Source of the DNA: a virus
Virus record (IMG/VR): IMGVR_UViG_3300032224_001455
Span: 1 to 20,160 of that record
DNA length: 20,160 nucleotides
Direction: 5' to 3' (one strand)
The notes under the pieces were generated by a model, which had not been told where the DNA came from, did no database searches, and saw only the letters and a list, made by a program, of their open reading frames with translations. Shown here piece after piece: positions 3,199-20,160 of the stretch (positions are counted from its first letter, which is position 1; every line of letters begins with the position of its first letter). The position numbers were made by a program, and so were the translations under genes.

Positions 3199-4110
3199 AT
3201 GGCAACCAGCAAAGTAGTAGCACTTAGTTACAACAATATTCAATCAAAGATAGGGGCAATATTAGGGCCACCTAGTCCGTCTGTATTGGATCTTGGTTAT
3301 AATCTTACTGTAAGTAGCATACAAGTTCAGCCCGGTAAAAGAGTCTACGGCCAAGATGCCAACTTGATGATCGGCGACCTAAACACTATTTTTACTCATC
3401 AAACTACATTAGATTCTGGTCTAACTACATTTAGTCAAGGTCAACTAATCAAAACAGGAGACCTTACACCGCTATCTTCAAAAACAGATACTGCATACGC
3501 CAATCGTAACACAGTTGGTCTTGCAAATTTATCTCAAATAAATTCAGATTCATACAGCGACGGAACTACATGGTCGGCATATAGGATACACACCGTAACA
3601 CTAGATTGGGGCAGTAATGCTGAATTCCGTGGTTGGGGTAATTTAGGTGGTTTTATAACTATTGGTGCAGGTTTCCAAGGAGGCAGCGGCACCCTTCAAA
3701 CAAATTCTTGGAGCCAGCTGTTGCAATCTACGGGAGTGATAGTTCTTGGAAATGTAGCGGCAACACAAGAAAATCAAACACGTAACGGCAGTTTTCCAAA
3801 TGGCGGGCTATATAATATCTTGCAAAACGGCCAACAAGGTGCCAATGCAGGTACCGCTTTTAAAATCTTAGCCACAGACGCAAACTATACAGGTAACTTG
3901 TATAAAATAACAATAACACCATACGGTGGTGCTGATGCATTTAACTGCAAGGGATTTACAATAACAGCAACAATGACAGATCCTCATACTTCTCCACCTA
4001 AGGCAAAAAATTCAGATTTCATTGATGCAGATTTTACATGGACCGTTAACACCTATTATGCGTTTAACAAATCCCCCACTGCATCTAACGTTACTAACAG
4101 TATATCGTAA
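3199..4110 (+). CDS. Virion-type structural protein, repeated-module family copy 1
   Basis: This 303-residue protein is rich in Ser, Thr, Asn and Gly, without signal peptide or membrane segment. It shares a module order with the next protein and with the C-terminus of the 1454-residue protein. The shared parts are an N-terminal helix-like stretch (YNNIQSKIGAILG, 11-23), then a Gly-Tyr-Asn turn, a DLNTIFTHQ element, a GDLTPL...YANRNTV element, and a NAEFRGWGNLGG strand-turn motif. Proteins beginning with a similar (D/Y)N-x-IQSKI-x-x-(V/I)LG stretch are annotated as virion structural proteins in marine T4-like phages (recalled, not searched). A tail-fibre, adhesin or decoration role is inferred. 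It is packed six bases after iscA and nine bases before copy 2, so co-transcription is likely. Confidence 0.7.
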   Translation: MATSKVVALSYNNIQSKIGAILGPPSPSVLDLGYNLTVSSIQVQPGKRVYGQDANLMIGDLNTIFTHQTTLDSGLTTFSQGQLIKTGDLTPLSSKTDTAYANRNTVGLANLSQINSDSYSDGTTWSAYRIHTVTLDWGSNAEFRGWGNLGGFITIGAGFQGGSGTLQTNSWSQLLQSTGVIVLGNVAATQENQTRNGSFPNGGLYNILQNGQQGANAGTAFKILATDANYTGNLYKITITPYGGADAFNCKGFTITATMTDPHTSPPKAKNSDFIDADFTWTVNTYYAFNKSPTASNVTNSIS

Positions 4111-4119
4111 GGAAATAAT

Positions 4120-5004
4120 ATGGGAAAAATATACGCATCAGATTGGAATCCTATTCAATCTTCTATAGCTAATATTATGGGAGCTCCGAGCGGAACTGCT
4201 TACGGATGGAACAAAGCATCTAGTGTAACAAGTGCGCAGGTTAACAGCACACAGCAGATTAATCATACTCACTATAACGTTCTTAAAGACGATATTAATT
4301 TTTGTTATACACATATTACGGGATCAAATTCTTCATTACCTATTAGAAATGCAGGAACACAAATAACCCAAGCTGATTTAACCAACGTCGCTGCCGCCCA
4401 AAGTTACATTAGCACAAATAAAACCACGGCCGCTGCCTCACAACTGACTACATCTAACATATTCAGTGACACCCAGGCATACACATGGACAGCTTCATTG
4501 GGAGCCACGTATACATGGTCTTGGGCAAATGCTACCCAGTTTAACGCTTTTTGGAATGCTGGTGGACAAATTTATTGGAACACATCTAGATATGCAGGTT
4601 CATCAACACCACAGAATCAAGGCTGGACGAATCTCTTGGCCAATTCGGGATTTATCTATATTACAGCAACAGCCTCGGGTCAAGTAGGTGCTACTTGGGC
4701 AGGAACTGTTTATAATACTAACGGTATAGGCGGCTTTTCAACCGTGCCGTCAATATTTACAAAGGTATATGATCAGGATTTAAATTATACCAATAATTAT
4801 TATCAAACTGAAGTATGGTTAGATGCCCAAGCTGGTAATGGAGCCACAACAATGAATTTGAAGATATCTCTAATCGATACCCACGTGGGAACTGCTGGAG
4901 GCCCCGATGGAATTGATGGTAACGTTGCATTAACTATAACTCAAAAATATCCATATACATGGGCGGCTGGTGCGGCCACTTCCAGCAACGGCTTCTTGAC
5001 CTAA
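4120..5004 (+). CDS. Virion-type structural protein, repeated-module family copy 2
   Basis: This 294-residue protein is a divergent paralogue of the preceding one. SDWNPIQSSIANIMGAP (7-23), a YGWN turn, INFCYTHIT, a DLTNVAAAQSYISTNKTT element and NATQFNAFWNAGGQIYWN match elements in the same order in copy 1 and in the C-terminus of the next gene. It resembles the C-terminal copy more than copy 1, notably in FWNAGG and the shared Cys-Tyr-x-His element. AAGGA lies upstream of the ATG. The protein is Asn/Thr/Ser-rich and beta-strand-like, with no catalytic motif. A fibre or adhesin role is inferred from the paralogy and position. Confidence 0.7.
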   Translation: MGKIYASDWNPIQSSIANIMGAPSGTAYGWNKASSVTSAQVNSTQQINHTHYNVLKDDINFCYTHITGSNSSLPIRNAGTQITQADLTNVAAAQSYISTNKTTAAASQLTTSNIFSDTQAYTWTASLGATYTWSWANATQFNAFWNAGGQIYWNTSRYAGSSTPQNQGWTNLLANSGFIYITATASGQVGATWAGTVYNTNGIGGFSTVPSIFTKVYDQDLNYTNNYYQTEVWLDAQAGNGATTMNLKISLIDTHVGTAGGPDGIDGNVALTITQKYPYTWAAGAATSSNGFLT

Positions 5005-5012: not shown

Positions 5013-8000
5013 ATGACTGAATTAAATGAATACATTGTAATTATACATAACATTGAAGACCACGAGTCTTTGCACCAAGAGATTATAAACTCTGGTGGTA
5101 GTGAATGTGTTCCTGATAGGGCCATCGAATCTGTCCTAAATCCTGTTGGCAGTCGTTGTACGCATTACATGATGACAGAAGCAGAAGCTGAGTTGTTGAA
5201 ACAAGATCCTAGAGTTTGGGAAATTACTAGAACAATGAAGGATCTTGGTATTGAAGCGGTGCCAGCTGGGTCTTATACACAAACTTCTAATTTATGGAGT
5301 AGAGGATATGTAACTGCACAGGATGATCTAAACTGGGGCAAACTAAGAGTCTCCGAAGGTGTACAAAGATTTCAATGGGGAAGTGATAGTCCACAACAAC
5401 TATATGATGTATCAGCATCTATAAATGTTCCATACAGCGGAGCCAATGTTGATGTAGTGATTGTAGACGGACATGCTGACCCAGCCCATCCAGAATTTGC
5501 AGTAAATCCAGACGGTAGCGGTGGGAGTCGCTATAACCAATTCAACTGGTTGAGTCTTAGTAACGCCATGTTTGGAACAACTAACGGAAACTATATCTAT
5601 ACTCCTTATAGGCAATCACAGGGAGCAAGTTCGGCATTAGAAACCAATAACATGCACGGCTCTCACGTTACTGGAATTGCATGCGGTAATACACAGGGCT
5701 GGGCCCGTGGTGCTAATATATATAACATATACCCATACGGCAATGATAGTAATGCAGGAGGGTTTGGTAGTTCTACCAATCAATGGATTAGCGGATACTT
5801 TTTTTACTATCTAAAATACTGGCATCAGAACAAGGCAGTTAATCCTGCAACTGGCACTAGAAATCCTACCATCATTAATAACAGTTGGGTAACTCAAAGA
5901 ATTATGAATATAGCTGATATCACGCAAGTGGTCTATAGGGGAACAACCTATACAGCACCTAGCGGCGGGTTCAGCATAGCTACTCTAAATGGTTTTGGAT
6001 TTCCAACTTATACCAATACCCAAGTTAGAATACTTGTTAGATACCCTGCATATGAAGCACAGTTACAAGATTGCATTAGTGCAGGAATGATAGTAGTCAG
6101 TGCCGCTGGTAATTATTCTACAAAGATAGCAAGAGATGATCAATCTACAACAGATCCAGATTATAATAATTCAGTTACAGCCTTAGGTGCAACAGATTAC
6201 TATAACAGAGGAACATTTACCACAACAGGAAATGGCATAGTAGTTGGTGCTCTAAGTTCTTCCTACATTGATATCAAATCAGGATATTCTGAAACAGGTC
6301 CTAGAATTGACGTATGGTCTCCTGGATCTTATATTACAAGTTCAGTGTTTAACAATACCACCTACAGCGGCGCTGTTGCTGACACTAGGAATAGCAATTA
6401 CTATCAGGTTAAGATTAACGGAACATCAATGGCAAGCCCGCAGGTCACAGGACTGTTAGCATGTTTGTTAGAGTTATTCCCAACAACTACTCAGGCAGAT
6501 GCACAACAGTACTTAATCGACCACGGTAAAGAGGGAACCATGCAGGACGGCGGGTATAATGTAGTAAATCCATTATACGATACCGGCAAACTACAAGGTG
6601 CTCCAAATAGGACCTTGTATGCATATTGGCCGCCTGCGCCTACTGCAACTGTGGCATTGCCTTCAACAACTATCAAAACAGACACTGTGGCAAAATTTAC
6701 TCCTGTAGTAGGATCAGGCGGAGTAGGACAATTGGTTTATACCATCAGTCCTGCTCTGCCCTTAAGTTCCTTAAATGGTACTGCACAATGTTGGATTGAA
6801 GCAATAGCCGGAAGAACTGATGTAGCCTACTTTCATTTAGTATCTGCAACGCCAGTCGATAACTTTAAAGTAGGGGACGGAATCTTTGGGGCAGGAATCA
6901 CAGACGGATCAGTTTTAGGATTTCCTACAGATTCAAGCAAGCTAATATGGACCATCTCGCCAGGCCGCACTTCTAATTTAGGTAGTGCTGGTAGTCCAGT
7001 TTACTTTGATACAGGCTTACATATTAATAATAAGACTGGCGAAATTACAGGAAGAACTGTAAGAACTCAAGTGTCGACTACTTATACTGTTACAGTTACA
7101 GGAGGCGGCATATCAGCAACAGCACAGTTTTCTTTAGCGATCACTCCAGGCTCCGACTATCAAGTCAACCGTGATATATCTTACGGATCTGATGCTATAC
7201 AAAAATGTGACTTCTGGGAAGTACTAAGTGGTACTCCAAAAGGAGTTATCGTTTGGGTTCACGGGGGCGGATGGGTAGGTGGTACCAAAGGACCTGGCGG
7301 GTTTACAATAAGTCAGGGCGGCAACTGGATCAATGACGAAGATCAAATAAGACAACTGGTACAGAAAGGCTATTATGTTGTTAACTGCAACTACCGATTA
7401 GCTACAACTGATACTAATTATATTCCTACAGGTGGTAGTAGTACCGCCAACTATCATCCAGCCGGTGCCGATGATATTGAAACTATCATAAGATTTTGTA
7501 CGACCGCCAACGCTGGGTCTAGTTATAGTTCAGTATGGAATACAATTTCAGCTAGAGCCAACACCTATGGACTTATCATTTCTGGAGAAAGTGCAGGCGG
7601 ACACTTGGTAGCTTATGCTGGTATGAAGTATATCAATGATTACGGACAAGGTCCTATCACTGCTATTTGCCCAGTAGTAGGTCCTATGGATTTAGACCAC
7701 GTAACACTGGAAAATATTGGGCCAACGAACATAACTCAGACTGCTAAGGATATAGTTAATAATTATGTAAACTCTGTTAATAATAGTACAGCGTTACAAG
7801 CGGCTTCACCTAGATACAAGTATGGATCTCTGGCAAGTCCTGGACCATGGCGTACTGCTGTAAAAAATTCTGGTGTGAAATTTATTTTTGTAAACAACAT
7901 CAATGATACATTAGTTCCGTCAATTCTCACTGACAATTTCATTAACACTCTACAATCAGAATTAGGAAATAATAGAATTAAGTATATCAAACTAGATGAA

Positions 8001-9377
8001 GGTGGCGATTGGGCGGCGGCCAATATTGCATATCCCAATCATAATTTAACCAGCGCAATTTCAACTATTGCAGAAACAGTAGCGGCGCTTGGTAATATAA
8101 TAACGCCGTCAGTATTAGTTACATCAAAAATCATCACAGCAGGACAAGCGACATCATTTACTCCAGTAACCTTCGTTGGCGGTGCAGGAACTGTCACGTA
8201 TAGCATAAACCCAAGTCTTCCAGCAGGGATGAGTTTTAATACCTCCAATGGTGCTATTACTGGAACACCTAGTGCGTTTTCACAAACCACTACATATACA
8301 GTTACAGGAACAGACGCAACAAACACTTCAGCATCTGGTACGTTTACCTTATTGGTTCAATCTGCTCCGTCAGTGGGCGGGACAACTCCAGTGAATCATA
8401 ACGATTGGAACGCATTACACAACAAAGTTGCAACGGTGCTTGGAGCCCCTGATGGTTCCATAGTCGACTTAGGGTGGAATCAGGGTATTATAAGCGGTAT
8501 CGTAAATACCAATGACACGATCACCGGTATTGAATACGATCAGATTGCTCAAGACGTTGACGTTTGCTATCAACACATTGCCAATACAAGATATCAACCT
8601 CCATCTAGAGTACCAGTTACTACAAAGTATCATGTTACACAGTCAGACTATACAGGTCTAAGTGCGGCTGTTGACTACTGTTATGCAAATAGAACTACAG
8701 TTTCTCCGACCAAATTAACTGCATCTTCATGGACTGCACATAGCGGTAATATAACATGGACTTTGATCCATGGATTTGGTTATCAGATTGATTTCGCAGA
8801 TAATGCCGCCTTTAGAAGTTTTTGGAACGCGGGCGGGACTATATCTTGGAATTTTGGATTCGTTCCCACAGCATCTCCTCCATTCGCTCCTATTAATCAA
8901 AATTGGGTAGATTTGTTAAGTGGTATTGGTACCTTTACACTTTCTAGAAATTCTTTTACTCAAACTGGGCAAGTTACCGGTTATAATGCTACTATATATT
9001 CGAACGTATCTTCCGGAGTCTATGGCGGAAATATGTTAGTAAATCCAGACCCAATATCCAATCCTGGAACAGCATTGTCTATGAAATGTTTTGGTGGCGA
9101 CCCAAATTATACCAGTAGTTATATAGAAATGTGGCTCGGTCTGGATAGTAGTAATTTGCTTGCCGCGAAATCTATTTGGGTCGTTTCCGCAGTAGTTACC
9201 GCCCATACTGGATTAGGTGGCTCTAATAACTACACCTCTGATGGTAATTTAAGCCTATCACAAACCACTAGATATCCATTCAATATTCAACAGGTTGGTC
9301 AGAGCCATGCGTATAATTACACTGACGGCGTCAGAACTAACGCTCTAAGCTACCCAGGAATACAGCCGTCATTTTAA
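5013..9377 (+). CDS. Giant virion-type protein: subtilisin-like protease + Ig-like + esterase + Ig-like + adhesin module
   Basis: The protein has 1454 residues. Residues 1 to about 100 form an unrecognised N-terminal segment, possibly a propeptide. A peptidase S8 domain follows with D152 (IVDGHAD), H215 (HGSHVTG), oxyanion N367 (AAGN) and nucleophile S472 (GTSMASP), so the triad is complete. Residues about 543-713 resemble a putative-Ig (He_PIG) domain split by an insertion. An alpha/beta-hydrolase follows: HGGG (750-753), S860 in GESAGG, candidate D965 (NDTLVP) and H1010 (PNHN), as in hormone-sensitive-lipase-type esterases. A clean He_PIG domain covers about 1030-1117. Residues 1127-1454 repeat the fold of the two preceding proteins, probably the virion attachment or shared adhesin part. 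No secretion signal is seen. A role in degrading host surface protein and acyl or ester groups during adsorption is inferred; the protease could instead process virion proteins. Confidence 0.85.
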   Translation: MTELNEYIVIIHNIEDHESLHQEIINSGGSECVPDRAIESVLNPVGSRCTHYMMTEAEAELLKQDPRVWEITRTMKDLGIEAVPAGSYTQTSNLWSRGYVTAQDDLNWGKLRVSEGVQRFQWGSDSPQQLYDVSASINVPYSGANVDVVIVDGHADPAHPEFAVNPDGSGGSRYNQFNWLSLSNAMFGTTNGNYIYTPYRQSQGASSALETNNMHGSHVTGIACGNTQGWARGANIYNIYPYGNDSNAGGFGSSTNQWISGYFFYYLKYWHQNKAVNPATGTRNPTIINNSWVTQRIMNIADITQVVYRGTTYTAPSGGFSIATLNGFGFPTYTNTQVRILVRYPAYEAQLQDCISAGMIVVSAAGNYSTKIARDDQSTTDPDYNNSVTALGATDYYNRGTFTTTGNGIVVGALSSSYIDIKSGYSETGPRIDVWSPGSYITSSVFNNTTYSGAVADTRNSNYYQVKINGTSMASPQVTGLLACLLELFPTTTQADAQQYLIDHGKEGTMQDGGYNVVNPLYDTGKLQGAPNRTLYAYWPPAPTATVALPSTTIKTDTVAKFTPVVGSGGVGQLVYTISPALPLSSLNGTAQCWIEAIAGRTDVAYFHLVSATPVDNFKVGDGIFGAGITDGSVLGFPTDSSKLIWTISPGRTSNLGSAGSPVYFDTGLHINNKTGEITGRTVRTQVSTTYTVTVTGGGISATAQFSLAITPGSDYQVNRDISYGSDAIQKCDFWEVLSGTPKGVIVWVHGGGWVGGTKGPGGFTISQGGNWINDEDQIRQLVQKGYYVVNCNYRLATTDTNYIPTGGSSTANYHPAGADDIETIIRFCTTANAGSSYSSVWNTISARANTYGLIISGESAGGHLVAYAGMKYINDYGQGPITAICPVVGPMDLDHVTLENIGPTNITQTAKDIVNNYVNSVNNSTALQAASPRYKYGSLASPGPWRTAVKNSGVKFIFVNNINDTLVPSILTDNFINTLQSELGNNRIKYIKLDEGGDWAAANIAYPNHNLTSAISTIAETVAALGNIITPSVLVTSKIITAGQATSFTPVTFVGGAGTVTYSINPSLPAGMSFNTSNGAITGTPSAFSQTTTYTVTGTDATNTSASGTFTLLVQSAPSVGGTTPVNHNDWNALHNKVATVLGAPDGSIVDLGWNQGIISGIVNTNDTITGIEYDQIAQDVDVCYQHIANTRYQPPSRVPVTTKYHVTQSDYTGLSAAVDYCYANRTTVSPTKLTASSWTAHSGNITWTLIHGFGYQIDFADNAAFRSFWNAGGTISWNFGFVPTASPPFAPINQNWVDLLSGIGTFTLSRNSFTQTGQVTGYNATIYSNVSSGVYGGNMLVNPDPISNPGTALSMKCFGGDPNYTSSYIEMWLGLDSSNLLAAKSIWVVSAVVTAHTGLGGSNNYTSDGNLSLSQTTRYPFNIQQVGQSHAYNYTDGVRTNALSYPGIQPSF

Positions 9378-9390
9378 TTAAAGGCGCAAA

Positions 9391-9732
9391 ATGGATGAAA
9401 GATTAGTCAAGGCATTAGAACATGCTGATTATCGACAGACTCTTGGTATTGAAAGACAGCGGTTAAAAGACAAAGCTCACGCAGATCTTATCATAGGCTA
9501 CAATGGTGGCATGTTTACTGTTGATCGAACACTTATTGGATTTGTAACAGCTATCAAAGAATACGGATCTGCTGTTATTTTAGATGACAACGGATATCCA
9601 GTTGAAATTGAAGACCTAGATGAATTCCAAGCAAGGGTAGTTGGTACATATTTCGAAGTTACCAACAAATACCTAACAGACTATAACGAAATCAAACAAA
9701 AAAGATCTGCGGCAAAATTGGTGGATTTATGA
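9391..9732 (+). CDS. Conserved hypothetical phage protein, 113 residues
   Basis: This small charged protein resembles a conserved hypothetical of marine T4-like phages as I recall it: an N-terminal helix (MDERLVKALEHADYRQTL), a YNGGMFTVD turn (residues 31-39), a DDNGYPVEIEDLDEF acidic stretch, and a C-terminal YFEVTNKYLTDYNEIKQKRS helix. There is no catalytic motif, membrane segment or signal peptide. It starts 13 bases after the giant protein with AAAGGCG upstream, and its stop overlaps the next ATG as ATGA. It therefore bridges the adhesin run and the glycosyltransferase run, and may be translationally coupled to the interrupted gene that follows. Function unknown. Confidence 0.75.
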   Translation: MDERLVKALEHADYRQTLGIERQRLKDKAHADLIIGYNGGMFTVDRTLIGFVTAIKEYGSAVILDDNGYPVEIEDLDEFQARVVGTYFEVTNKYLTDYNEIKQKRSAAKLVDL

Positions 9733-10559
9733 ACCAAGGATGTTGTATATTTGCCTACGACGGCGATATAGCCTACGGCACTCAAGCGGCTCTGTCAGCT
9801 CGGTTAGTTAAGAAATATCTTAATATACCTGTTAGTCTTATAACAGATGAAGATACTTCGAAGCGGGTTGATCACAGTATTTTTGATCAAATCATTATAA
9901 CTGAAATAGAAGACACAGGTAACTCACGTATGCTGTCCTGAGAAGCCATTGCTTTTAAAAACACCAACAGAAATAAAATCTACGATCTTACTCCTTATGA
10001 TCGTACACTATTAATCGACAGTGATTTTTTAGTATTCAGTAATCGTCTAAAAGATTATTTAGATAGTGGTTACAATTTTATGATATGCGAAAACATGAAA
10101 GATCTATGCCCCAATAGACCCGGAAGTAAAGTCACGTTCGGTCCAGCAAGTCTTCGCATGCTGTGGGCAACAAATATTATATTCAACAAAACTCCCGAAA
10201 ATAAAATTCTTTTTGATCTAGTAGAACACATTCGCGAAAACTGGGAATGGTATGGAGTGCTTTATCATTTTGATACCAGGAGATTCCGTAACGACTATGC
10301 ATTTACAGTAGCATGTCATATTATGGGAGGATTTGGCGCTGATCAATATTATATAGCCTTGCCTAGTCCCATATTGTTTAATGATCAAGATTCATTAGTT
10401 AGTAAGAAGGCCGTGGAAAAAACAATAGCTAAAAAAGATCTAACATGGATTGTTGGGGAGCAAAACATATTAGTTAAAACGCAAAATCAAGATATTCACA
10501 TGATGAACAAACTAGATTTGCTGAAAAAAATAGATACATTTTTAAATTTATATGATTGA
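9729..10559 (+). pseudogene. Glycosyltransferase-like gene interrupted by an in-frame TGA
   Basis: One continuous frame of 277 codons is broken only by TGA at 9939-9941 (codon 71). Before it stand 70 residues with FAYDGDIAYGTQA and NIPVSLITDED, typical of the nucleotide-binding start of GT-A phage glycosyltransferases. After it the same frame continues through LTPYDRTLLIDSDFLVF, whose DSD (codons 97-99) fits the metal-binding DxD motif, and a WYGVLYHFDTRRFRNDYAF segment. The whole matches a phage glycosyltransferase family and is a distant paralogue of the next gene. The 138 bases between the TGA and the next ATG (10080) also encode family-like sequence, so a single-base change (for example TGG to TGA) explains the break best. 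It could be a real nonsense mutation, an assembly or sequencing error, or readthrough. TGA serves as a normal stop in several neighbouring genes. Confidence 0.75.
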
Positions 10560-16529: not shown

Positions 16530-17477
16530 TTATTTATGCTTGGGCATCTTACTGTCTGCAGAGCTTACACAAGAGTCTGTAACGCACAAACTTGGAGTTT
16601 TTAATAAACTAAAATTTGTTAATGTTCCTATAGATTCTTCTTTGCAAGAATACCCTCGTTTAACTTCATTTCCTCGGATAATTAGTCCTTGGAATCCTGC
16701 AGAGCACTTCCAGTTCTTAAATCTATTGAATCCTAATGCGTTGAATCTTTCAGCTTGATCAATATAGTAGTTGTTAATTCCGTCAGTTAATCTAATCTGA
16801 AACCCTTCTTGCTGTTCAAAATCGTCTTGCATGATTCTAATCATCTCGGGCGTGTAGCCGTCAACAATGGCAGTAGCAGTATTGTTACTCTGCGGTTTAA
16901 GTGTTACATTGATTCCTTTAGATCGAAATCTGTTACATCTTTCCAAGGTTTCAAAAAACTTATCAGGAACCATAACTTGATTAATAGTGACATGCACTAA
17001 ATCTTCCATGAGCTGTAGGCACTTATCGCTGAATTCATTTTCCTTTGCAAACTCTGCATGAAAGCTGGCTGTAATGCTCCTTCTTTGTAACATTTCTGTC
17101 GATATATGCCATCGTTTCCACCAATTTAAACTAGGACTTAGATTGGTAGTCATATGTACTGATTGGTACGGAGATTCTAGTTCGTCTAGATATTTGATTA
17201 ACTCTAGTAGATTTTTGTAGGCAGTAGGTTCGCCGCCACTAAAACTCCAATGAAACTCAGTAAAACCATTTAGTCTTGCTTGTCTTTTGATTTCATCTAT
17301 GGTGTTTTTATATATGTCCAACGATTCATGGTCCGGGGTATCGTTTCGAGCATATGGCCAACAGTAAGAGCAATTATAGTTACAAAATCTACCTAGTATC
17401 CAACTAACATTAAATCTAGGATTATCTAGTAAAGTTTGTTGCCCGAAATAATTAATTTGTTCTAGAGGTATTGTCAT
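16530..17477 (-). CDS. Radical SAM protein with C-terminal auxiliary-cluster cysteines
   Basis: This 315-residue protein carries the radical SAM signature CxxxCxxC as C32, C36 and C39 (FCNYNCSYCWP), which binds the [4Fe-4S] cluster that cleaves S-adenosylmethionine. SGGEPTAY (80-87) is the GGE motif that contacts the SAM amino group. Four further cysteines at 258, 278, 298 and 303 sit where SPASM/twitch-type proteins hold an auxiliary Fe-S cluster, as in peptide-modifying enzymes. The spacing is not a textbook SPASM pattern. The start overlaps the previous gene by 26 bases. It lies third in the run of radical SAM genes, so the three may act on one pathway. The substrate could be a peptide, a sugar or a nucleotide; nothing here decides it. 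Confidence 0.88.
   Translation of the reverse strand: MTIPLEQINYFGQQTLLDNPRFNVSWILGRFCNYNCSYCWPYARNDTPDHESLDIYKNTIDEIKRQARLNGFTEFHWSFSGGEPTAYKNLLELIKYLDELESPYQSVHMTTNLSPSLNWWKRWHISTEMLQRRSITASFHAEFAKENEFSDKCLQLMEDLVHVTINQVMVPDKFFETLERCNRFRSKGINVTLKPQSNNTATAIVDGYTPEMIRIMQDDFEQQEGFQIRLTDGINNYYIDQAERFNALGFNRFKNWKCSAGFQGLIIRGNEVKRGYSCKEESIGTLTNFSLLKTPSLCVTDSCVSSADSKMPKHK
16531..16538 (-). promoter_or_regulatory. T4-late-type promoter octamer before the 236-residue gene
   Basis: CATAAATA on the minus strand fits NATAAATA, the relaxed T4 late-promoter form. It overlaps the last codons of the radical SAM gene (its TAA stop begins just past the core) and lies 21 bases before the ATG at 16510, leaving a very short leader. 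The only non-overlapping junction of the right block is here, which supports a separate transcript. Part of the motif is constrained by coding sequence, so chance is possible. Confidence 0.4.
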
Positions 17478-19083
17478 TCTTTAATTTTTCTAGTAGTGGG
17501 GTAAAATATTGTTCTATAACTGTGTCAAAATATAATTTCGTCATGTCTATAGATTTTAGCAGATCTTTGTATTCCTGCTGTGACATGTTCTTTGTTAATT
17601 CTCTATTTGAAAGTATAGGATGATTGAGAGACGATTTATAAAAATCACCCGTGTATATTCTTTTAGGTACTGATCGATCGTACGAAGCGGCTAATTCGGT
17701 GGCTTGTTCAAATGTATATATTCCGCTACAGTCTTCTTTCTTTTTCCAGCTGACTCTATCGTATGCTGTTTTAATTTCTCCAAAGTAATATCCGTGTTTA
17801 TCGTAATTCTTGTCAAACTCACTCTTATATATCCAGTGGTTTCCGTGCTCAGTAGTATCTTTTCCATCAAAGATGTTTATCGGAAACACCCAAGATTCGT
17901 GTATAGGACATTCTGGATCTCGCAAATAATCACAAGTAGATGCAATAGATTCTTCCGGTTCGGTCGGAAGTCCTACCATAAAACCTGCTTGGATGTGTAC
18001 ATCATTACCCCATACTTCTTTGCATTTAGCAAGAGCTTCTTTTGTTTTTTCGGCCTTCATCGCTTTTCCAACTGCTTTTCCTGCGCCTGGATGAAATGTT
18101 TCAACTCCCATATAAGTTTGTTCTAGACCTATTTCTTTAAGTAACGTAATCTGTTCAGGGTGTACTGCTAATAAGTCTAATCTTGTATAGCACCAGAACT
18201 TAATTTTAAAAGGTAACGAATCAACTACCTCTTTAAACATTAGTAATTTTTCTGTAGTATCATTAAAGGTATCATCCATAATGTAATACTGTGTTATTCC
18301 CCAACGATTATAATTTTCTAGCAATTCGTCTTTTAATACTTCTTTGTATTTTAGATAATCGTCTATATTTTTTTGCCCTATGAGAGGATAAGAGCAGTAT
18401 GTACATTTGAATCTGCATCCGCGAGCTACCTCTAAAGAAAGCGTTTCGTTAGGAGTAATAAAGTCGTAGTCAGTGTATGATGTTTTGCTTTTTCTAAAAT
18501 CCCACACCGGAAGTTGTGCTTTATAATCGTAATCAAGAACTTTATTGAATAGTCTTTTCTTAGAACGACCGGTTACTGAATCTAGGTAATCAATAACCAT
18601 TGTTTCTGATAAGCCGTATATAAAATTATCTACGTCTTGAAAATCTGTAAAAAATCCTATTCCAGACCCACCAAATACAATTTTAGTTTTTGAATTTAAA
18701 TTTTTAATACAGTCAAACCATGGGGCCTGGCGACCTGCGGCAATCTCATCAATTAATCTTTTTGAATACATAGACTCTGTATCAAATCTAAGTATATCAG
18801 TTTCTCTTCTATCTCTACCGGGCACTTCTGTACTTAATGGTTCGCCAGGAATACGCATAGGCATAAAAGTAGTAGAAAACCCAACCATATAGGTTTCTTC
18901 TCCGACTGTATTTTTTAATATTTCATTGTACATTTCTCCGTCAATTGCTGAAGAAAAATTAACCACAAGGCAAGTGTACCCATTATCTCTAATATGAGAT
19001 GCCAATCGATAAGCTCCATAGTTTCTAGTCTTGGTATCTTGAACTGGCGTATCTGCAAATATTATTACATTAAATTTTGGCAT
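17452..19083 (-). CDS. Radical SAM protein with N-terminal B12-binding-like domain
   Basis: This 543-residue protein has the class B-like architecture. An N-terminal Rossmann-type half (1 to about 170) carries YGAYRLASHIRDNGY (22-36) and IVFGGSGIGFF (135-145). The radical SAM core starts at C223, C227, C230 (RGCRFKCTYCSYPLIGQ). FWCYTRLDLL, MGVETFHPGAG and GFMVGLPTE are conserved strands of the TIM-barrel in this family. I do not see the DxHxxG cobalt-ligand motif, so it may bind cobalamin base-off without His or not at all. Family members methylate, cyclise or rearrange unactivated carbons. It overlaps the first tandem paralogue by 14 bases and the third radical SAM gene by 26 bases. It is a close paralogue of the upstream gene in the core and C-terminal tail (FYKSSLNHPIL against FYASSFNHPIL). 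Confidence 0.88.
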   Translation of the reverse strand: MPKFNVIIFADTPVQDTKTRNYGAYRLASHIRDNGYTCLVVNFSSAIDGEMYNEILKNTVGEETYMVGFSTTFMPMRIPGEPLSTEVPGRDRRETDILRFDTESMYSKRLIDEIAAGRQAPWFDCIKNLNSKTKIVFGGSGIGFFTDFQDVDNFIYGLSETMVIDYLDSVTGRSKKRLFNKVLDYDYKAQLPVWDFRKSKTSYTDYDFITPNETLSLEVARGCRFKCTYCSYPLIGQKNIDDYLKYKEVLKDELLENYNRWGITQYYIMDDTFNDTTEKLLMFKEVVDSLPFKIKFWCYTRLDLLAVHPEQITLLKEIGLEQTYMGVETFHPGAGKAVGKAMKAEKTKEALAKCKEVWGNDVHIQAGFMVGLPTEPEESIASTCDYLRDPECPIHESWVFPINIFDGKDTTEHGNHWIYKSEFDKNYDKHGYYFGEIKTAYDRVSWKKKEDCSGIYTFEQATELAASYDRSVPKRIYTGDFYKSSLNHPILSNRELTKNMSQQEYKDLLKSIDMTKLYFDTVIEQYFTPLLEKLKNDNTSRTN

Positions 19084-20160
19084 TTCTTAACTTAATTAGT
19101 AATAGATTAAAATAGTCAGTATGCACCGTGTTATAATAAAGTTCATCAAAATTGATATTATCCATAACATTTCTATATTCTCGTGGTGTCATATCGATAG
19201 TGGCTTCTCTATCACGCAGTATAGGATGATTAAAGCTACTTGCGTAAAAATCACCACGACGCTCTCTTTGGTAAGGTTTAAGTTCCGCTAGAGTAGCATC
19301 CGCTATGTCTTGCGCTATCACAAAAGAGGGAATGTCAGTATCATCATCCTTTTGCCAGGCCAGCATGCCTTCCACACCTGTATGGGGAAAGTAGTAGCCA
19401 AAATCTTCGTAGTTGTTGTCAAACCAGCTGGTGGGGAACCACTTGTTGCGTTCTGATTTTTTGACTATGTTTAAAGGGTAACAAGTGCTGATGTCCAAAG
19501 GACAGTCTGTTTGCTTTAACCAGTCAACGGTTTGACGCCAACTGGCCTGTGTTTCGTAGGGCAAGCCAATCATAAAGCCGCCTTCCATCCACACACGGTC
19601 TCCCCATACTTCTTTGGCTTTGTATAGTGTATCCTTACGACGACTGCTGGGCATGCCTTTGCCGATAGTCTTGCTACTCTTATCGTTAAACGTTTCGAGT
19701 CCAAAGAACGTTTCAGCAATGCCTATTTCTTTAAGCAACATCATTTGCTCAGGATGTGTGGCCAACAAGTCAATACGTGTATAACACCAGAACTTGATTT
19801 TAAAAGGCAAGTCACTCATGACCTTGGCCAGCATTTCTAACTTTTCAGTGCTGTCGTTAAATGTGTCATCCACAATAAAATATTTTGTGGTGCCCCAGCG
19901 TTCATAGTTCTCCAACAGCTCATCGCGTATGTGTGTGGGATACTTGAGATAGTCGTTGACATTCTTCTGTCCAATGAGAGGAAAGTTGCAGAAGGCACAT
20001 TTGAATCTACATCCACGCCCTACTTCAAGCACTTGCGTTTCCTGTGGTTGTATAAAGTCCCACTCAGTATAACGTGTACTGCTTTCACGAAAGTCCCATG
20101 TAGGTTGGTGTGCTTTACGGTCATGGTCAACAAATTTGCTAAAGATTCGTTTGCTTTTAC
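19070..20160 (-). CDS. Radical SAM protein, tandem paralogue, N-terminus beyond right edge
   Basis: The open frame continues through the right edge: codons from 20158 read KSKRIFSKFVDHDRKAHQPT, matching the segment just before the radical SAM core in the paralogue. The GTG near 20032 is therefore not the start and the N-terminal domain is cut off. The visible 362 residues include CRFKCAFC (C50, C54, C57 of the visible part), FWCYTRIDLL, FFGLETFND and GFMIGLPYE, in the same order as in the next gene. The C-terminal tail is also shared. Base composition changes inside it: about half G+C at 19501-19560 (30 of 60) against about 15 of 60 in the equivalent region of the paralogue (18301-18360), while its last 150 bases are AT-rich. 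The two copies are not a recent duplication; this one looks separately acquired. Confidence 0.88.
   Translation of the reverse strand, partial: KSKRIFSKFVDHDRKAHQPTWDFRESSTRYTEWDFIQPQETQVLEVGRGCRFKCAFCNFPLIGQKNVNDYLKYPTHIRDELLENYERWGTTKYFIVDDTFNDSTEKLEMLAKVMSDLPFKIKFWCYTRIDLLATHPEQMMLLKEIGIAETFFGLETFNDKSSKTIGKGMPSSRRKDTLYKAKEVWGDRVWMEGGFMIGLPYETQASWRQTVDWLKQTDCPLDISTCYPLNIVKKSERNKWFPTSWFDNNYEDFGYYFPHTGVEGMLAWQKDDDTDIPSFVIAQDIADATLAELKPYQRERRGDFYASSFNHPILRDREATIDMTPREYRNVMDNINFDELYYNTVHTDYFNLLLIKLRNAKI

Follow-up and report, generated by a model that had tools for sequence, protein, structure and literature searches.

Can a single phage gene encode a protein that carries both a subtilisin-like protease and an esterase, each with its catalytic residues intact? 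The question is raised by IMG/VR virus record IMGVR_UViG_3300032224_001455, which derives from an uncultured, T4-like aquatic phage and was analysed in its entirety (20,160 bases, hereafter the window). A reading of this DNA from its letters alone had picked out a gene at positions 5013–9377 and proposed that its product is a virion-type protein with two catalytic sets, joined by immunoglobulin (Ig)-like domains and ending in a C-terminal module (hereafter the C-module) that is common to two neighbouring proteins. Both catalytic sets are found in one 1454-residue chain exactly as that reading had numbered them (D152, H215, N367 and S472 for the protease; S860, D965, H1010 and HGGG for the esterase), and the observation stands on firmer support than a first reading could know. 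Judged by its sequence, the fusion protein is a new form of the cyanophage-type tail subtilase, a kind already known, lengthened by an Ig-linked, BD-FAE-type esterase and the C-module.

Domain layout and conservation of the fusion

The gene and its parts are laid out as follows.

5013–9377, + strand: protease–esterase fusion gene, 1454 residues, a single open frame without stop, with full-length orthologues in nine IMG/VR contigs
5013–5252, + strand: I9-propeptide-like domain, residues 1–80, from sub-threshold Inhibitor_I9 matches in the family, AlphaFold topology and PDB fold matches
5430–6632, + strand: subtilisin-like protease domain (S8; phrog_9158), residues 140–540, from Pfam, PHROGs and Foldseek
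5466–5468, + strand: protease Asp152, aligned with the family DTG/DSG Asp and kept in 24 of 25 members
5655–5657, + strand: protease His215, first His of the HG(S/T)H motif, in 25 of 25 family members
6111–6113, + strand: protease oxyanion Asn367 (AAGN/SAGN), in 25 of 25 family members
6426–6428, + strand: protease nucleophile Ser472, in the GTS motif (25 of 25), beginning a long helix (471–488) in the AlphaFold model
6633–7124, + strand: beta-rich Ig-like linker, residues 541–704, all-beta in the AlphaFold model
7125–8117, + strand: predicted esterase domain, an alpha/beta-hydrolase of the BD-FAE family, residues 705–1035, from Pfam, a profile match to 4zrs and the model
7260–7271, + strand: HGGG oxyanion motif, residues 750–753, invariant in eight orthologues
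7590–7592, + strand: esterase nucleophile Ser860 (GxSAGG), invariant, modelled between strand 854–859 and helix 863–877
7905–7907, + strand: esterase Asp965, invariant, in a loop modelled with low confidence
8040–8042, + strand: esterase His1010, invariant, in a loop modelled with low confidence
8124–8357, + strand: Ig-like (He_PIG) domain, residues 1038–1115, Pfam E 9e-12, modelled as a beta sandwich with a predicted local distance difference test score (pLDDT) of about 90
8358–9374, + strand: C-module common to two upstream genes, from tblastn within the window and alignment

By Pfam, Peptidase_S8 is matched at residues 144–505 (expectation value, E, 1.1e-20; 74.6 bits against a curated cut-off of 21.8) and BD-FAE at residues 743–969 (E 1.4e-11; 44.8 bits against 26.8), and the He_PIG match likewise lies above its curated cut-off. 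The serine motif of the protease, GTSMA, occupies residues 470–474, and the nucleophile motif of the esterase, SGESAGG, residues 857–863. Ig-like domains are also present as proposed, in the form of the modelled beta-rich linker between protease and esterase together with He_PIG by Pfam; beyond a He_PIG hit with two stretches, residues 541–704 have no Pfam model of their own.

The same fusion, sought in other viruses, recurs in twelve other IMG/VR contigs, nine of them with a full-length open reading frame (1441–1462 residues) and three spanning the protease–esterase junction; some of the thirteen contigs are near-copies of one virus, and together they represent roughly five or six independent lineages. 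Gene order is kept in these relatives, with two module genes, the fusion gene and the same downstream genes. An assembly chimera, which the sequence-only reading had named among the things that would refute its proposal, is ruled out as the source of the fusion by these twelve further contigs with the same gene order.

Among eight intact proteins, pairwise identity is 51–98% in the protease and 43–95% in the esterase, and the ratio of non-synonymous to synonymous substitution rates (dN/dS) is about 0.04–0.25 and 0.11–0.34, respectively, indicating purifying selection on both. In these orthologues, neither the four protease positions nor the seven of the esterase (HGGG, Ser, Asp and His) vary, against background invariant fractions of 40% in the protease and 28% in the esterase. 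Because the catalytic positions are invariant despite this divergence, and dN/dS lies far below 1, both active sites are, on comparative grounds, being kept.

Within this group, contig L006 matches the window at about 99% identity across the two upstream module genes, and from the linker through to the stop codon identity is largely 90–100%, with most of the C-terminal half at about 99%; from 5013 to about 6350 the two are only about 71–89% identical, mostly about 76%, and L006 and L004 are 98–100% identical across the protease region, producing a sharp mosaic. The pattern would reflect either recombinational exchange of the protease or an assembly chimera in L006, and the fusion itself is unaffected. 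The same pair of contigs differs in a further gene at 9729–10559 (+ strand), which is interrupted by an in-frame stop (codon 71) in the window copy alone and is intact in L006 (16495–17325; 276 residues); the stop may be a variant, decay or a sequencing error.

The protease half, its family and its N-terminal domain

Residues 5–536 match phrog_9158 (PHROGs, E 4.6e-92), with homology spanning the full N-terminal 540 residues, the start included, and the protease domain matches subtilases by Foldseek with E of 1e-14 to 1e-16. D152, H215, N367 and S472 lie in the canonical motifs and order of the subtilase (peptidase S8) triad and oxyanion Asn, and the set is kept in 24 of the 25 phrog_9158 family members examined, the exception being that of S-CAM1, in which Glu replaces Asp. 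Relatives of the protease in the phage collection come from 47 records, nearly all T4-like cyanophages, with matches confined to residues 3–548; the typical member stands alone at about 550 residues. That the protease half belongs to this widespread cyanophage tail family was not part of the sequence-only reading.

In S-H38, S-CREM1 and Sf-FR1 the family gene adjoins genes for the baseplate wedge and tail pin; in S-WAM2, S-RSM4, ACG-2014e and P-SSM2 it lies near genes for tail fibres and for virion structural proteins or tail spikes, the P-SSM2 copy being annotated T4-GC 292 with a PF00082 domain; many further stand-alone copies are found within IMG/VR tail clusters. The member from S-SCSM1 (L013:7938–12173), a 1411-residue protein with a subtilase and laminin-G domains, is tagged 'virion protein' in its record. 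About 48 such tags occur across the S-SCSM1 record, 45 proteins were detected by mass spectrometry in caesium chloride-purified S-SCSM1 virions (PMC9602691), and the three non-structural proteins named in that study all carry the tag, so that the tags very probably mirror the proteome. The virion-type character originally proposed is hence supported for the protease family, by the S-SCSM1 tag and by stand-alone relatives in tail clusters, and for the fusion protein itself we infer it.

The first 80 residues bear the pattern EYIV...THYMMTEAEAELLRQDPRVWEV, resembling the I9 propeptide of subtilases, and no signal peptide is apparent ahead of them. In the family alignment, Inhibitor_I9 has more matching members than any other Pfam family (8 of 21); its best match, sub-threshold at E 0.0046, scores about 17.4 bits against a curated cut-off of 21.2, and the window protein itself has no I9 profile match; because the profile score lies under the cut-off, residues 1–80 are called I9-like rather than a member of I9. 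The sole PDB sequence match of the N-terminal profile is the 112-residue companion chain of a subtilase (8c4z_A, E 0.5). An AlphaFold model built from a 19-row alignment (mean pLDDT 66) gives the N-terminus the beta-alpha-beta-beta-alpha-beta topology of I9 (strands 5–11, 39–42, 49–54 and 68–73; helices 14–25 and 56–62), and ProN-Tk-SP stands on top of its list of PDB fold matches, in which unautoprocessed pro-subtilisin E also appears. Profiles and model together give good evidence for an I9-like domain at the N-terminus, an element that is new here and had been absent from the first reading, and because this domain is I9-like the protease is probably synthesised in zymogen form.

Equally absent from that reading is a second copy in the same phages. 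In contigs G001, G002 and G003 the fusion is accompanied by a further phrog_9158 protease, a stand-alone protein of 525 residues encoded next to tail genes; this second subtilase is located at L037:1195–2772 (– strand), and also in L055 and L056, in the tail cluster of fusion-carrying phages. In a maximum-likelihood tree, all fused copies group together (100/99), and the stand-alone copies from these phages form a clade of their own (100/100). A single origin of the fusion is most likely on this tree, because the fused copies form one clade. A recent duplication of the same phage's stand-alone copy was considered as the source of the fusion and is not supported, the two falling in separate clades.

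The esterase half and the C-terminal module

In addition to the BD-FAE match in the window, which in contig L020 has E 2.1e-14 (54 bits), the esterase shows a profile match to esterase 4zrs (E 2e-6). The model places a strand-Ser-helix element within the expected alternation of strands and helices, and its viral fold matches include alpha/beta-hydrolases. Outside the fusion, the domain yielded no tblastn match among 50,697 phage records at E 0.1, no BLAST match among 72,556 plasmid records and none in GTDB contigs by a pattern scan, which reaches close relatives only; the strong matches in IMG/VR are all the same fusion gene, and two weak ones lie elsewhere. The BD-FAE enzyme, a bacterial alpha/beta-hydrolase, takes feruloyl and acetyl groups off xylan (PMC8165983). 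Of the substrates first suggested, nothing was found in favour of lipoproteins, and a surface-glycan deacylase would fit the BD-FAE assignment better.

The C-terminal 339 residues of the fusion protein are related, by tblastn in the window, to both genes directly upstream, which bears out the proposal of a module common to the three; the alignments cover 4096–4962 (32% identity, E 2e-28) and 3217–4080 (26% identity, E 3e-16), within the following genes.

3199–4110, + strand: upstream gene of 303 residues built of the C-module, its position conserved in relatives
4120–5004, + strand: upstream gene of 294 residues built of the C-module, stopping 8 bases before the fusion gene

A homologue of the C-module is the last gene of the tail cluster in another phage (L062:16860–17804, E 1e-6). 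In an 82-kb virus record, a 771-residue protein (L092:5980–8295) carries at its start a remote version of the module (30% identity, E 2e-5), after which come repeats that appear Calx-beta-like by eye.

Proposed function and comparison with known systems

What might such a protein do? We somewhat favour a bifunctional hydrolase associated with the tail, in the baseplate or fibre region, and working on host surface layers. Its I9-like propeptide would chaperone and inhibit the subtilisin domain, which, once folded, would cut the propeptide off and thereby gain activity during assembly or later, with the Ig-like domains acting as spacers and the C-module tying the protein to the tail or binding glycan. 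At the cell surface, the protease could cut protein of the surface or associated with the capsule, and acyl groups could be stripped off surface polysaccharide by the BD-FAE-type domain, such that the path to the receptor is cleared. Zymogen activation, enzymatic activity, a virion location of the fusion protein and host-surface substrates are here what we infer.

Three points weigh against this proposal. Metabolic rather than tail genes surround the fusion gene, which in the window comes after the two module paralogues; the tail cluster of the related contig G001 is some 15 kb away, and in G001–G003 the copy within the tail cluster is the stand-alone one. For the C-module, neither PHROGs (up to E 10) nor Pfam (up to 0.1) gave a match, because of which its anchoring role is a guess. 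Finally, structure prediction, one of the checks originally envisaged, recovers the subtilase fold and the alpha/beta order of the esterase, and models the HGGG, Asp and His loops of the latter at pLDDT of about 30–45, a level at which assembly of the triad is not proven by the model.

The main competitor, which we consider unlikely but deserving of attention, casts the subtilisin as a maturation protease for itself and for neighbouring tail proteins during assembly, with the esterase alone acting on the host. An I9-like propeptide implies autoprocessing, the cyanophage family gene lies within a base or two of the upstream tail gene or overlaps it, and a maturation role is ascribed to many peptidases of phage virions (PMC7824862). 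However, a stand-alone subtilase is already present in the tail cluster, making a second maturation enzyme less needed, and fusion with an esterase, or with laminin-G in other phages, points to surface work. Distinctly less probable is a virion-borne protein in which one catalytic site, likeliest that of the esterase, binds a ligand without cutting it: the lower invariant fraction of the esterase and its poorly modelled catalytic loops would agree with such a role, whereas its Ser, Asp, His and HGGG do not vary in any of the compared orthologues, although most of the domain does. We are similarly doubtful of a two-enzyme tail device in which a zymogen protease, activated by propeptide loss, would strip surface protein or cut the Ig linker to free the esterase, which would then deacylate the glycan beneath, clearing protein and acyl barriers in order. 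About equally improbable is a cytoplasmic or lysis-time enzyme that is no virion component, as its metabolic neighbours (NifU_N-type IscU, iron-sulphur carrier, tryptophan-halogenase-like, oxygenase-like and radical SAM proteins and a NodU-like carbamoyltransferase) might suggest, but which the Ig-like domains, the repeated C-module genes, the virion tag of the S-SCSM1 homologue and the tail location of the family speak against.

As to the host, the IscU-like gene at 954–1334 (– strand) is 80–85% identical to beta- and gammaproteobacterial IscU, because of which a proteobacterium appears more likely than a cyanobacterium, a judgement that rests on one acquired gene. T4 gp23 was sought in the related contigs without a match, but the control was equally silent, which makes this result uninformative. 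At 16530–20160 (– strand) lie three radical SAM-type frames in succession, two of them Radical_SAM by Pfam; T4-like marine viral genomes carrying IscU, A-type carrier and radical SAM genes are known (PMC5332604).

Phage depolymerases have been studied mostly as glycan-cutting spikes. If the activities proposed here are true, a tail family with a zymogen-type protease, joined in one lineage by an esterase, would suggest that protein and acyl barriers of aquatic bacteria matter for phage entry, and the varied C-terminal partners (none, laminin-G, or Ig plus esterase), together with apparent cassette exchange, would offer a testable case of modular entry enzymes.

Among known systems, the phrog_9158/T4-GC292 family (S-H38, S-CREM1, S-WAM2, P-SSM2, S-SCSM1) aligns with residues 1–540 nearly throughout at about 26–40% identity, and has the I9-like start and the catalytic set in common with the fusion protein; it differs in that none of its members in the phage collection was found to carry an esterase domain, the S-SCSM1 member having laminin-G in its place. 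BD-FAE (PF20434; PMC8165983) is likewise a Ser-Asp-His alpha/beta-hydrolase with an oxyanion glycine, and its triad spacings are similar, 109 from Ser to Asp (105 here) and 32 from Asp to His (45 here), but it belongs to bacterial polysaccharide utilisation and is not viral. Deacetylating tail spikes and fibres (Vi phage acetyl esterase, PP99, Aristophanes) offer a parallel in virion-borne acyl removal from host polysaccharide, as proposed here; the domain of the fusion protein is instead of BD-FAE type and protease-fused, and the search of the phage collection returned no homology to them. The claim that a dual hydrolase would be unusual goes too far, since two-hydrolase virion proteins as such have precedent, although no phage protein pairing a protease with an esterase was found in the literature searched, mostly without subscription papers. 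In phi29, gp13 is a virion protein with lysozyme-like and endopeptidase domains (PMC9863714), which target the cell wall and are unrelated to those described here, and it resembles the proposed tail hydrolase in carrying two different hydrolase domains on one protein, with a virion location that for the latter is predicted.

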